From Candidatus Woesearchaeota archaeon (GTDB taxonomy: Archaea > Nanobdellota > Nanobdellia > SCGC-AAA011-G17 > PNOQ01), in the NCBI GenBank assembly GCA_018663865.1, contig JABJPM010000017.1, forward strand, positions 1 through 42,346: 42,346 bases of DNA, in the 5' to 3' direction. Shown here one piece after another: positions 32,853-42,346 of the stretch (positions within the stretch are counted from its first letter, which is position 1; each line of letters opens with the position of its first letter). A program made the position numbers and the translations under genes. The notes below the pieces were generated by a model. That model was not told where the DNA came from. It worked only from the letters and a program-made list of their open reading frames with translations, and did no database searches.

Positions 32853-34337
32853 TTATTCACAAAATTTCATTAATTTAACATCTCTAGTTTGTAGACTTAC
32901 CAATGGGACTCTGCAGGGTTCAGGATGGTGTCCGACTTTTTCCTGAAATTTAGTAATAGCTTGCCAACAACTTCCAGAAATTAAAGTTGTTTTACCATAA
33001 TGGCTGACGCTTGATTTATGGATGTGCCCTGAAGCAAAAAAATCAGGGACATCTTTGATTATTAAATCATCTCTGTCGGGTTCAACTACGAATAATGTTG
33101 AACCATGGGATGGCGCAAGGTGCCTTTTTTTCATTAAAAATTTCATAACTAAATCTGCACGATCATATCCTCCTTGTTCCCTGATACTTTCAACCTGGTC
33201 AATATAATAATCAAAACTATATCCATGATACATTAAAACATTAAAACCCTCAAAATTATCTTTTGATCCGATATTGACTACAGCGGGATTACTTACAATA
33301 TGGACATTATCCATTGCGTAAAGATTACTTGCAAATTCCTCATCGAGAACTGGTTGAGGTTCGGCCAATCTTAGTGCGTCATGATTTCCGGGGCAAACAA
33401 TAATTTGTAAATCGCTCCGCATTTTGGAAAAATAGTGCGCACATTGATCATATTGATCTTTTATGTTGGGAATGGATAATTCTGCCTCCTGATTAGGATA
33501 GATCCCTGCACCATCTACAATGTCACCTATAACAAATAAATATTTGACAGATTTTGCCATTTTTTGTTGCTCTTCACTACCAGAATTACCATTTATCCAA
33601 TCTATGAATTTTTCAAATTCCTTTTCCAAAAACATATCGGACCCGACATGTATATCGGAAATAAATGCGGCATGCTCATTAATTATAGATTTTTTCATAA
33701 TATTATCTTCGATTTTGACATCGGGAAAAAATAATTCATTTACAAATACAATCTTGTTCCCCATGTTGCCAACCAGCCCTATTACTTCATCGGGCACTAT
33801 ATCCTTCGCCATATCAAAAATTTCTTTTTTTGTTGAATTTATTAAAACTTTTATTTTTCCAGTTGGATCTTCAATTTCTAACATTACATTGCCATTTTTT
33901 GTCATTTTTTTACTATATACTAATCCAATCAAGGACACCTTTTCTCTTTGCATTTTAGAAAATGTCCTACTAACAGACATAACATCTGTCAATTCAATTC
34001 TGCCCTGCAATAATTTACTCATAAATTTATATCTTGTCCTGTAATGTTCGATAAAATGCCCGATTTCTATTTTACTTAATTTATCTTCATATGAATCTAT
34101 AATTTTAACATTCCCAATTAAAGGAGATTCACCCTGTGAACTTGAATTTTCACATTTTAAATATTTTAATTTTAATTTGTCTAATATGGACTTATTCAAT
34201 ACTTGACCCCTAATCTCATTGGCATGGCCATTGATTAAATCAAAAGAGGAATCATCAATCAAACTAATCACATCGGGATCAAGAAATATCCCCTCATCCA
34301 TCAAATTTTTTATTTTTTCATTCATATACTGAGCCAC
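32853..34337 (-). CDS. polB: DNA polymerase II (PolD) small subunit DP1
   Basis: Calcineurin-like phosphoesterase motifs AFISDIHVGSDMFLEKEFEKFIDW, VIGDIVDG, CPGNHDALRLAEPQP. Confidence 0.97.
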   Translation of the reverse strand: MAQYMNEKIKNLMDEGIFLDPDVISLIDDSSFDLINGHANEIRGQVLNKSILDKLKLKYLKCENSSSQGESPLIGNVKIIDSYEDKLSKIEIGHFIEHYRTRYKFMSKLLQGRIELTDVMSVSRTFSKMQREKVSLIGLVYSKKMTKNGNVMLEIEDPTGKIKVLINSTKKEIFDMAKDIVPDEVIGLVGNMGNKIVFVNELFFPDVKIEDNIMKKSIINEHAAFISDIHVGSDMFLEKEFEKFIDWINGNSGSEEQQKMAKSVKYLFVIGDIVDGAGIYPNQEAELSIPNIKDQYDQCAHYFSKMRSDLQIIVCPGNHDALRLAEPQPVLDEEFASNLYAMDNVHIVSNPAVVNIGSKDNFEGFNVLMYHGYSFDYYIDQVESIREQGGYDRADLVMKFLMKKRHLAPSHGSTLFVVEPDRDDLIIKDVPDFFASGHIHKSSVSHYGKTTLISGSCWQAITKFQEKVGHHPEPCRVPLVSLQTRDVKLMKFCE

Positions 34338-35548
34338 CCACGCAATTGAGAAATTAATCCAGGTATACTTGACTGCGGCATGGCAAGACCAATTTCCTTT
34401 GTACGCCCATATCGCCCCTTACTAATAACTTTAGCATTGATTATACCCAACATGTCTAATTCTGCAATTAGGTCTGACAATCTCCTTTGTGTTAAAGGTT
34501 TTAATCCGCATTTTATGCAGAGGTTCATATATACCTCATATACATCTCCAGTAAAAAATTTCTCATTACCTTTTTTTTCATATAGATCAAAAATCGCCAA
34601 TAAAGTTAATTGTGATTGTTTAGGCAAGGTATTTATTACCTCTACAACTAAATCATTTTCTATTTTTGATTCAGCCTCATCAATATGCACTATATCCACT
34701 TTCAAATCATTTTTTCGTTCAGCTAGCTCCCCTGCAACCCTCAATAGATCTAAGGCCCTCCTGGCATCACCATGCTCCCTTGCGGCATAGGCAGCACATT
34801 TTTCAATTACTCCCTCAGAGATAGAGCCATCTTTGAATGCACCTTTTGATCTTTCAAGTAAAATATCTTGCAATTGTAATGCATTATATGATGGAAAATT
34901 TAAATCCTCCTCTGCGAGAGAAGATTTTATTCTCGGATCAAGATCGTTTGCAAACCGGAGATCGTTTGATACCCCTACAAATGTCACCTGAGTATTTTTT
35001 AATTCTGCATTCATCCGGGTTAAATTATAGAGAATTTCATCTCCTGCCTTTTTTACTAGTTGATCAATTTCATCAAGAATTAAAATTATTTGATTAGGGC
35101 CAGCCTCAATATTTTTTATGAATAATCGGTAGACTTCATCAGTAGGTAATCCTGTGACAGGAATATTCTTTTGCCCAAACTCTCTAGCCAAACTAGCAAT
35201 GAGCCTATATTCTGTATCTGCAACCCTTTTTAATTTACAATTAATATAAACTACTTTTAAGGGTAAATCCTTACTATTGGAAATCTCCCTAAGATTATTT
35301 GTTACATGCAATACTGACAAAGTTTTTCCAGTACCAGTTTTACCATATAGAAATAAATTTGAAGGTTTCTCATTTCTAAGTACTGGGGCAAGGACACCTG
35401 CAATCTCATTAATCTGCTCATCCCTGTGAGGGATAGTGTCCGGAGTATAACTTGTTTGCAAAATCTTTTTATTTTTGAAAATCGATTCTTTTCCAAGGTA
35501 ATCTTCAAAAAAATTTTTTATCCCATCTTTTGTCATTTTATTTTTCAA
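34322..35548 (-). CDS. cdc6: ORC1/CDC6-type replication initiator
   Basis: DTIPHRDEQINEIAGVLAP, LFLYGKTGTGKT, ILDEIDQL, YAAREHGDARRALDLLR; C-terminal winged helix. Confidence 0.97.
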   Translation of the reverse strand: MKNKMTKDGIKNFFEDYLGKESIFKNKKILQTSYTPDTIPHRDEQINEIAGVLAPVLRNEKPSNLFLYGKTGTGKTLSVLHVTNNLREISNSKDLPLKVVYINCKLKRVADTEYRLIASLAREFGQKNIPVTGLPTDEVYRLFIKNIEAGPNQIILILDEIDQLVKKAGDEILYNLTRMNAELKNTQVTFVGVSNDLRFANDLDPRIKSSLAEEDLNFPSYNALQLQDILLERSKGAFKDGSISEGVIEKCAAYAAREHGDARRALDLLRVAGELAERKNDLKVDIVHIDEAESKIENDLVVEVINTLPKQSQLTLLAIFDLYEKKGNEKFFTGDVYEVYMNLCIKCGLKPLTQRRLSDLIAELDMLGIINAKVISKGRYGRTKEIGLAMPQSSIPGLISQLRGWLSI

Positions 35549-35598
35549 AATAGAAAATATCTATTTAAACATTGTTATATTTGAAAATAGACTCCTAG

Positions 35599-35620
35599 CC
35601 CTTCATTTCCTTTGGAACAA
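35599..35620 (-). promoter_or_regulatory. ORB-like motif (reverse orientation)
   Basis: Reverse complement reads TTGTTCCAAAGGAAATGAAGGG, resembling the dyad + G-string of archaeal ORBs. Confidence 0.55.
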
Positions 35621-38932: not shown

Positions 38933-39002
38933 AATTCATTACTAATCAATAACCGATCAATCAATCACCAATCAATCACTAATTAATCACTAATTAATCA
39001 CG
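38933..39002. repeat. 11-bp iteron-like direct repeats (4 close copies + 2 degenerate)
   Basis: 38959 AATCAATCACC, 38970 AATCAATCACT, 38981 AATTAATCACT, 38992 AATTAATCACG; degenerate units at 38933 and 38944. Confidence 0.85.
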
Positions 39003-39174: not shown

Positions 39175-39864
39175 ATGGATGAAAAAATTCTAAAAAAAGC
39201 TTTTGTAAAAGTAAAATCAGATATTGAAAATTTAAATAATAGGTTGGAAAATATTGAAAATACCCTGAATTTACTCATTTCTATCAAAAATAATCAAAAA
39301 AACACTAAAAACGATGGAAGTTCCAGTGGAAATGAAGGGGTCCGATCAATCAATCATTCAACAAACAATCAATCAATCACTAATCAATCACGTGCTGAGC
39401 ACAAAATCGGGCAGTATACCCCTCAAATAAGCCATAATTATGATAATTTGGAACGATCTGATCAATCACTGAGCAATCAATCACTGAGCAATCAATCCCT
39501 TTCTAAACACTCACTAAGCACTCAAAAATTAAATATTCAATCACTCAAGAAGGATCTAGAAAATCGATTTAATGCCCTCACTAGTCAAGAATTTCTAGTA
39601 TTTCTTACAATATATCAAATGGAGGAGGACCTTAAACGGCCAGTGACTTATAATGATCTATCTGAACGTTTAAACCTCACTTCTGGATGTATTAGGGGGT
39701 ATGTAAGTGCATTAATCAGGAAGAATTTACCCCTCACAAAGGCAAAAATAAACAACAGAACATTGACATTATCCATAAAATCTGATTTCAAAGAGTTAAA
39801 TCTCAAACAAAAATTAACAAATATCTACTATGATCAAGATCCAGATCAAACAAAACTATTTTAA
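39175..39864 (+). CDS. Coiled-coil + low-complexity linker + C-terminal HTH protein
   Basis: N-terminal DIENLNNRLENIENTLNLL; SDQSLSNQSLSNQSLSKHSLSTQ linker; LTSQEFLVFLTIYQMEEDLKRPVTYNDLSERLNLTSGCIRGYVSALIRKN HTH. Confidence 0.75.
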   Translation: MDEKILKKAFVKVKSDIENLNNRLENIENTLNLLISIKNNQKNTKNDGSSSGNEGVRSINHSTNNQSITNQSRAEHKIGQYTPQISHNYDNLERSDQSLSNQSLSNQSLSKHSLSTQKLNIQSLKKDLENRFNALTSQEFLVFLTIYQMEEDLKRPVTYNDLSERLNLTSGCIRGYVSALIRKNLPLTKAKINNRTLTLSIKSDFKELNLKQKLTNIYYDQDPDQTKLF

Positions 39865-39935: not shown

Positions 39936-39999
39936 CGTTCACCGAACGTTCGGTGAACGTTCACCGAACTGTCTATAGACGTCACCGAACGTTCGGTGA
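39936..39999. promoter_or_regulatory. Operator-like palindrome array (five TCACCGAAC half-sites)
   Basis: Perfect 24-bp palindrome CGTTCACCGAACGTTCGGTGAACG (39936-39959), half-site 39961-39969, GTCTATAGAC (39971-39980), perfect 18-bp palindrome TCACCGAACGTTCGGTGA (39982-39999). Confidence 0.88.
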
Positions 40000-40041
40000 A
40001 CGATGCAAAACGTTTATATAGGGGTAATATCAAATATAGGT

Positions 40042-40641
40042 ATGTTTAATTTTTTTAAAAGAGGAAAAAATGATCCAAGGCTCGCTGAAACTATTTCAAC
40101 AATGCAGGAGAGTTTAAAAAAATCATTTACAAATATAAAGAAAGATTTTTCGATGATGGATGGCCATAATAAAACATTCCATGAAAAGCATGAAAAACAC
40201 ACAATTGATCATGGGGAGCATCGAAAAAATATCCAATTGCTTGGTGAGAGGTTAAAATCAATTGAAGAGTCACTGGGCATACTAAAGGAGATAGAAATAG
40301 TGAATGAGGAAGTGAGTGGCGAAGTTGAGGCAGATTTTGGAAATTTAGAGGATATGACTGGGGTATCTCAGAAAATATGTTATGTTCTAGCAGCATTACA
40401 AAAAGAGAACAAAGGCATGGTGACCCTAAAAACCCTTGCAGAAGAAATGTATCCTGGAAAAGAGTATGCAAAAATTAGGTCAACAATATCGCAGTATACT
40501 ACGGAGTTAGAAGAATTGGGCTATGTCCAAAAAAAGAAAAAAGGAAAACAAGTATACATCAAATCTACTGAAAAAAACCCATTTCTAAGTGAGAAGTTAA
40601 CTCCGAAAAAGGTAACAAAAAAAATCAAAATAAAAAAATAA
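40042..40641 (+). CDS. Coiled-coil + C-terminal winged-helix protein
   Basis: MFNFFKRGKNDPRLAETIST...; SQKICYVLAALQKENKGMVTLKTLAEEMYPGKEYAKIRSTISQYTTELEELGYVQKKKKGKQVYI. TATA tttatata at 40013-40020 supports ATG 40042 over the track start 40003. Confidence 0.78.
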   Translation: MFNFFKRGKNDPRLAETISTMQESLKKSFTNIKKDFSMMDGHNKTFHEKHEKHTIDHGEHRKNIQLLGERLKSIEESLGILKEIEIVNEEVSGEVEADFGNLEDMTGVSQKICYVLAALQKENKGMVTLKTLAEEMYPGKEYAKIRSTISQYTTELEELGYVQKKKKGKQVYIKSTEKNPFLSEKLTPKKVTKKIKIKK

Positions 40642-41594: not shown

Positions 41595-42346
41595 ATGGTC
41601 GAAAATAAATTAAAAACTGCAATCTATGTAAGGGTATCTACCGATGAACAAGCAAAAGAGGGGATCTCAATATCTGCTCAAATCGATAGGTGTCAAAACT
41701 ATTGCAAAGCGCGATCTTGGAAAGTAATTAATATTTATACTGATGCAGGATATTCTGCTGGTTCAATGAAGCGTCCAGCCGTCCAACAATTATTTCAAGA
41801 TCTACGTGAAAATAAATTTGAAAATATTTTAGTCTATAAATTTGATAGGTTCTCGAGAAATGTCAGAGACTTAATAACTTTTTTAGATAATCTGAAAGCT
41901 CAAGAAGTAAATTTTACATCTGTTACGGAAAATATAGATACTACGACTGCAATGGGGGAAGCATTTTTTCAGATGATTGGTGTTTTTGCACAATTGGAGA
42001 GGGGGATGGTAAAAGAACGAGTAAAGTTAGCATTCGATAAGAAAATTAGCGATGGAGAATCATTAAGTCGTGCACCAAAAGGATATATGTATAATAATGG
42101 GAAATTAATCGTCGACAAAAAAAATTCAAACGAAATAAAACAAATTTTTGATATGAGGGCGGCAGGAATACATTATAAAATAATCTCGGACAAATTCAAT
42201 ATTCCCATATCTACATTGTATAACATAATAAAAAATCCAACCTATGCTGGAAAAATAAAGTATAATGGTGAAATATATGAGGGAACTCATAGCGCAATCA
42301 TAGATCCCGCATTATTCAACAATCTAAATCCCTTGCAATCTATAAA
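41595..42346 (+). CDS. Large serine recombinase, C-terminus cut by right window edge
   Basis: MVENKLKTAIYVRVSTDEQAKEGISISAQIDRC...KFDRFSRNVRDLITFLDNL...TAMGEAFFQMIGVFAQLERGMVKERVK...; recombinase domain IIKNPTYAGKIKYNGEIYEGTHSAII. Absent from ORF track because it has no stop in the window. Confidence 0.93.
   Translation, partial: MVENKLKTAIYVRVSTDEQAKEGISISAQIDRCQNYCKARSWKVINIYTDAGYSAGSMKRPAVQQLFQDLRENKFENILVYKFDRFSRNVRDLITFLDNLKAQEVNFTSVTENIDTTTAMGEAFFQMIGVFAQLERGMVKERVKLAFDKKISDGESLSRAPKGYMYNNGKLIVDKKNSNEIKQIFDMRAAGIHYKIISDKFNIPISTLYNIIKNPTYAGKIKYNGEIYEGTHSAIIDPALFNNLNPLQSI

Follow-up and report, generated by a model that had tools for sequence, protein, structure and literature searches.

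An 11-bp-phased repeat array upstream of a winged-helix gene near the only strong Orc1/Cdc6 box of a Woesearchaeota genome: a candidate autoregulatory and origin-organizing site

Directly upstream of the promoter of a gene for a predicted winged-helix protein (ORF2) lies a tandem array with an 11-bp period (array B), situated ∼600 bp downstream of an origin recognition box (ORB) that is the genome's only strong Orc1/Cdc6 box. We infer, with a probability of roughly 0.6, that array B is the cognate site of ORF2 and that ORF2 is an autoregulating, origin-organizing binder of an iteron- or centromere-like kind; the binding, the autoregulation, the anchoring, and the origin role are all predictions from the evidence presented below. 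The host is a DPANN archaeon of the Woesearchaeota type. The coordinates of the features are collected in Table 1.

Array B consists of six consecutive slots of an 11-bp unit that occurs as GTTCACCGAAC or GTTCGGTGAAC, each the reverse complement of the other, and each unit also has an internal inverted-repeat symmetry (GTTC-NNN-GAAC). Read directly from the sequence, slots 1 to 3 are GTTCACCGAAC at 39937, GTTCGGTGAAC at 39948, and GTTCACCGAAC at 39959, and slots 4 to 6 are the degenerate TGTCTATAGAC at 39970, GTCACCGAAC at 39981 (10 bp, one base short), and GTTCGGTGAAC at 39991. An earlier sequence-only reading had reported five exact TCACCGAAC half-sites (39939, 39961, and 39982 forward; 39948 and 39991 reverse), and these were recovered at the same positions and on the same strands, with no further exact copy in the window (the entire 42,346-nt stretch analyzed). 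The spacings it gave (22, 21, and 43 bp) are correct, and the TTTATATA TATA box (40013-40020, 13 bp past 39999) and the ATG at 40042 lie where it had placed them. The elevated GC content that it described was also reproduced, at 0.52 for 39937-40001, whereas the upstream flank has 0.25, the downstream flank 0.30, and the window as a whole 0.31. Its 9-bp half-sites phased at 21-22 bp are a sub-reading of the 11-bp unit, and that spacing, correct in itself, corresponds to two such units. Its inventory was sound for the half-sites but did not include the 11-bp unit, the ORB lying 600 bp upstream, or a second array before and within ORF1, the upstream neighbor of ORF2. The array finding is real and broader than had been stated.

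The repeat density was compared with 60 dinucleotide-preserving shuffles of the window, none of which (0/60) contained any 9-mer five times within 70 bp; in the real window, one coding repeat at 1288 likewise attains five copies. The genome-wide scan that the sequence-only reading had proposed was run on the 594-kb assembly, and the 18-bp palindrome (≤3 mismatches) was found only at array B. The 11-mer (≤1 mismatch) gave a single additional lone match in that assembly, at C23:1050. This near-copy (genome G000) lies 5.5 kb from the sole ParA/MinD-like gene found (C23, 6588), possibly by coincidence. The array upstream of ORF2 is also unique in the complete chromosome of a relative (G014). Nothing was found to suggest that the array arose by chance, marks the end of a mobile element, or stems from misassembly; its density was not attained in the shuffles and the same position is occupied in tens of independent genomes, and these explanations, of negligible probability, are already refuted by the comparative data.

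Table 1. Features of the ORF1/ORF2 locus and of the nearby cdc6 region, in window coordinates.
Feature	Coordinates	Strand	Remarks
Second, weaker ORB, TTCCAAAGGAAATGAAGGGCT	35597..35617	-	Upstream of cdc6; opposite orientation to the ORF1 ORB
orc1/cdc6 initiator gene	34322..35548	-	Cdc6_C E 7e-30; next to the genes for both DNA polymerase D subunits
Array A, four AATYAATCACN units (38959, 38970, 38981, 38992)	38959..39002	+	Exactly 11-bp spacing; upstream of ORF1
ORF1, N-terminal helix plus winged helix, ORF2 paralogue	39175..39864	+	Syntenic with ORF2; ORB inside coding DNA
Origin recognition box (ORB), GTTCCAGTGGAAATGAAGGGGT	39320..39341	+	Inside ORF1; exact match at 39321
Further AATCAATCAC units (39371, 39382, 39475)	39371..39485	+	Within ORF1, just past the ORB
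Array B, 11-bp-phased	39937..40001	.	Direct sequence; genome uniqueness; period shared by the arrays 5' of ORF2 in relatives
TATA box of ORF2, TTTATATA	40013..40020	+	Sequence; BRE-like purine stretch immediately 5'
ORF2, 199 aa	40042..40641	+	Aromatic-basic N-terminus MFNFFKRGK; helix 12-91; winged helix 107-175
Small membrane protein gene, 65 aa	40643..40840	+	Directly 3' of ORF2; retained in genus and family relatives

The AlphaFold model of ORF2 (mean pLDDT 79, pTM 0.41) contains a helix of ∼80 residues followed by a winged helix whose third helix comprises residues 142-159. Foldseek searches with the model returned generic winged-helix matches, including TubR and AspA at E 0.03-0.08, and none with E < 0.001, and Pfam and NCBIfam scans gave weak winged-helix or coiled-coil matches and nothing more. 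Because the fold matches are generic only, we assign ORF2 to no specific family. Its N-terminal peptide was modeled at low confidence; aromatic-basic N-termini recur among the relatives (MFNFFKR, MWFFKKR, MGFLFFGKKK, MVWWLFKKK), and by analogy the peptide is a possible membrane anchor or may contact a protein partner rather than the membrane. A start codon at 40003 was rejected, as it would put the TATA box within the coding sequence and the homologues start at MFNFF. The TATA-like box begins a median of 30 bp (interquartile range 30-31) 5' of the ORF2 ATG in 41 relatives. A TATA box ∼30 bp before the ATG is the expectation for leaderless archaeal transcripts, and the ORF2 promoter is probably leaderless. 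Array B ends right before the BRE/TATA of this promoter. Near the locus, a serine-recombinase-like gene (41595-42344) runs off the contig end.

Relatives of ORF2 are present in 84 of the 103 genomes of the order, ∼16 of them matching chiefly in the N-terminal half, and ORF1 is present in 83 of the 103. At ∼45 fetched loci the two genes are neighbors with a shared orientation, and the distance between them is mostly 0.1-1.1 kb. Conservation upstream of the orthologues, a check suggested by the sequence-only reading, was seen at these ∼45 loci as a retained 11-bp period and position at ORF2 with variable letters. Array types by genus include GTTCGGTGAAC, CGTCTACGAC together with GTCTATAGACGTCT, TTGTTAAGAC, GTTAACTTAAC, and GTCACTGACG, and GTTAAGAT is the type of a further genus. 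Self-identity at lag 11 upstream of ORF2 averaged 0.556 versus 0.385 in control windows (45 loci); it was elevated at lags 11 and 22 and weakly at 20 only, the remaining lags being flat or nearly so. The lag-11 signal exceeded the 99th percentile of the controls at 18 of the 45 loci; the other 27 have mixed strands or spacing, with a partial pattern in a few. The long ORF1-ORF2 gaps of many relatives (for example, L026, L044, and L043) contain multiple copies of AACTCTCACTTTT, predominantly on a single strand, which are possible additional protein sites.

Several observations bear on which protein reads array B. At one locus (L024), where ORF2 lies 3 kb away from ORF1, the array is located before ORF2. 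In lineages that have, in place of ORF2, a divergent gene in convergent orientation (ORF2b), ORF1 and the ORB persist and the array is absent downstream of ORF1. Array k-mer distance correlated with the distance between ORF2 helix-3 segments (residues 140-158) at r 0.645, and at 0.526 (p 0.001) when made partial on the ORF1 winged helix, whereas ORF1 helix 3 retained no residual signal once made partial on ORF2 helix 3 (0.065, p 0.15); these tests control shared ancestry only in part. Because the letters of the array track the recognition helix of ORF2 and not that of ORF1, and because the lineages with divergent ORF2 do not have the array, array B is very probably the binding site of ORF2 itself, as predicted from sequence comparison. 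The array thus pairs with its downstream gene, in that it moves, vanishes, and co-varies with ORF2, which makes autoregulation of ORF2 via array B plausible. Binding by ORF1 or Orc1/Cdc6 instead of ORF2 could be proposed from the nearness of both genes and from the paralogous winged-helix nature of ORF1. That assignment is very unlikely given that array B is unlike an ORB, that no residual co-variation was seen for helix 3 of ORF1, that ORF1 and the ORB remain where the array is lost, and that ORF1 has different 11-bp repeats of its own. The upstream protein (39175-39864), which the sequence-only reading had listed as one of two possible binders, is a poor candidate.

The ORB within ORF1 closely follows the archaeal ORB consensus, with its dyad and G-string, and its letters are identical to those of an ORB listed for Methanomassiliicoccales (PMC4153887). 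All 58 exact matches to the ORB pattern TTCCANNGGAAAYNANGGGGT in the 103 genomes fall in or beside ORF1, and therefore the locus is origin-linked; with ≤1 mismatch allowed, 81/81 ORF1-linked matches are on the strand of ORF1, and reversed control patterns had zero matches. In 73 of the 83 ORF1-bearing genomes, this functional-looking box lies within coding DNA. It is translated in two frames into unrelated peptides (SSGNEGV-like at 35 loci, VPQEMKGS-like at 9), from which we conclude that selection acts on the ORB DNA; for the same reason, the ORB as a by-product of a conserved peptide was rejected. The cdc6 and polymerase D genes lie ∼4 kb from the ORF1/ORF2 locus in the window. The arrangement differs from that of other archaeal oriC regions, which have several intergenic ORBs next to cdc6, in having one strong ORB within a coding sequence. 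GC skew is compatible with an origin at the locus without locating one there precisely: in G014 the jump at the locus is equalled by 20% of positions, and among G014, G012, G027, G038, and G009 the minima are tens of kb off in several, with switches near, not at, the locus. Overall, array B probably belongs to an origin-linked structure.

The sequence-only reading had offered an operator or an iteron-type site, and the data support a combination of the two, with autoregulation plausible and a role tied to the origin more likely than that of an ordinary operator, since the locus adjoins the sole strong Orc1 box. The simplest alternative, that ORF2 binds the array solely to control its own gene and that the nearness of the ORB is incidental, would account for the fixed geometry of array and BRE/TATA, the co-variation of the array with the ORF2 helix, and the uniqueness of the array in the genome. 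We consider it unlikely, as at least six phased sites over 65-130 bp far exceed the needs of an operator, a regulator without any other target has no evident purpose, and the linkage to the sole strong ORB holds throughout the order. Somewhat less improbable, though still doubtful, is that ORF2 is an initiator or initiation regulator (WhiP- or plasmid Rep-like) and the array part of a melting or loading site in oriC. The ORB linkage, the nearby cdc6 and polymerase D genes, and the existence of winged-helix initiators (WhiP, PMC4010727) fit that proposal, but the distance between the array gene and the ORB varies from about 0.4 to 1.6 kb, the L024 array accompanies ORF2 away from ORF1, and GC skew does not pinpoint the origin at this locus.

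In the reading that we prefer, ORF2 dimers would occupy consecutive helical turns of array B, in which a slot recurs roughly every turn, and would thereby cover the DNA as an ordered nucleoprotein filament. The filament would abut the promoter and regulate transcription of the leaderless ORF2 gene, and the clustered N-terminal peptides may attach the origin region to a partner or to the membrane. The main job of ORF2 would be to organize the origin, by anchoring it to the membrane or to some other partner, assisting its segregation, or timing its firing. This role is suggested by the position ∼600 bp from the sole strong ORB, the order-wide occurrence of the locus, and the aromatic-basic peptide with its long helix. 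Tethering or segregation rather than control of initiation is a tentative choice, to which we give about half the weight of the origin link itself.

Parts of the locus resemble known systems. TubR, of the type III plasmid partition system TubR/tubC, is a small winged-helix protein that binds tandem direct repeats preceding its operon, represses the operon, and forms a filament (PMC5016525). ORF2 is similar in its modeled winged helix (TubR structure 6aht is among the Foldseek matches at E 0.03, for a generic fold) and in the tandem repeats with an 11-bp period upstream of the gene (45 loci); it differs in its long N-terminal helix and aromatic-basic tail and in its chromosomal, ORB-linked locus, and no TubZ GTPase gene lies beside it, the downstream genes being that for the 65-aa membrane protein and unrelated ORFs. 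AspA, from the partition system of the archaeal plasmid pNOB8, is a winged-helix protein that binds a palindrome 5' of the aspA gene and spreads along DNA (PMC5120986), and its profile weakly matched the helix-wing part of ORF2 (E 0.01-0.02 over 42 residues). However, the AspA site is one 23-bp palindrome in place of an 11-bp array, and parB and parA come after aspA but not after ORF2, which has no adjoining ParB or ParA ORF. A ParA-dependent scheme was rejected as a general one, since the ParA-like family PF13614 had no match in complete genome G014. In the type II plasmid partition system ParR/parC, short tandem iterons around the promoter bind one dimer each and mediate autoregulation (PMC5016525), but ParR is a ribbon-helix-helix protein whereas the ORF2 model is a winged helix, and no ParM gene lies beside ORF2. 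With these partner genes not found, ORF2 and array B are not placed in any of the known partition systems tested. The Bacillus subtilis DNA-binding protein Noc brings DNA to the membrane through an N-terminal amphipathic peptide (PMC4331003), to which the conserved aromatic-basic N-terminus of ORF2, a candidate membrane peptide, may be analogous; Noc, unlike ORF2, is ParB-like and has sites scattered round the chromosome. WhiP is a winged-helix protein encoded beside its own archaeal origin, Sulfolobus oriC3 (PMC4010727), but oriC3 is without an ORB and WhiP is Cdt1-related, and no sequence relation of ORF2 to WhiP/Cdt1 was found in the family scans, which gave only weak winged-helix models.

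ORF1 and ORF2b show variations of the arrangement. The 11-bp-phased AATYAATCAC repeats before and inside ORF1 keep a constant strand and bracket the ORB. ORF2b (L099-L115, L020) keeps the N-terminus and has a different DNA-binding domain, and its linker-coding DNA consists of dense repeats, either GTTCAATC/TGAACGTTCA spaced 4-13 bp apart or GTCCAAACAG spaced 12 bp apart, so the sites of these binders may sit within their own genes. In a close relative (G002), positions 1868-3388 of contig C12 comprise another ORF1/ORF2b-like pair, accompanied by an exact ORB of its own; this pair may mark a second origin or belong to a plasmid. We tentatively suggest that the Woesearchaeales, with variants elsewhere in the class, possess an undescribed origin-tethering and segregation system in which a shared N-terminus, binding the membrane or a partner, is combined with exchangeable DNA-binding domains and their own fast-evolving arrays, located before the gene or in linker-coding DNA, all linked to a single strong Orc1 box.

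The arrangement of the locus points to an undescribed device for origin anchoring, segregation, or replication control; our literature search, of incomplete coverage, found neither a Woesearchaeota origin nor the ORF1/ORF2 genes described. The start of replication and chromosome segregation are little studied in DPANN archaea, which the archaeal origin and segregation papers retrieved omit. The ORF1-ORF2 locus provides a concrete, order-wide candidate origin with two named proteins, and the dozens of co-evolving protein-array pairs form a natural series for deriving the rules of winged-helix recognition.
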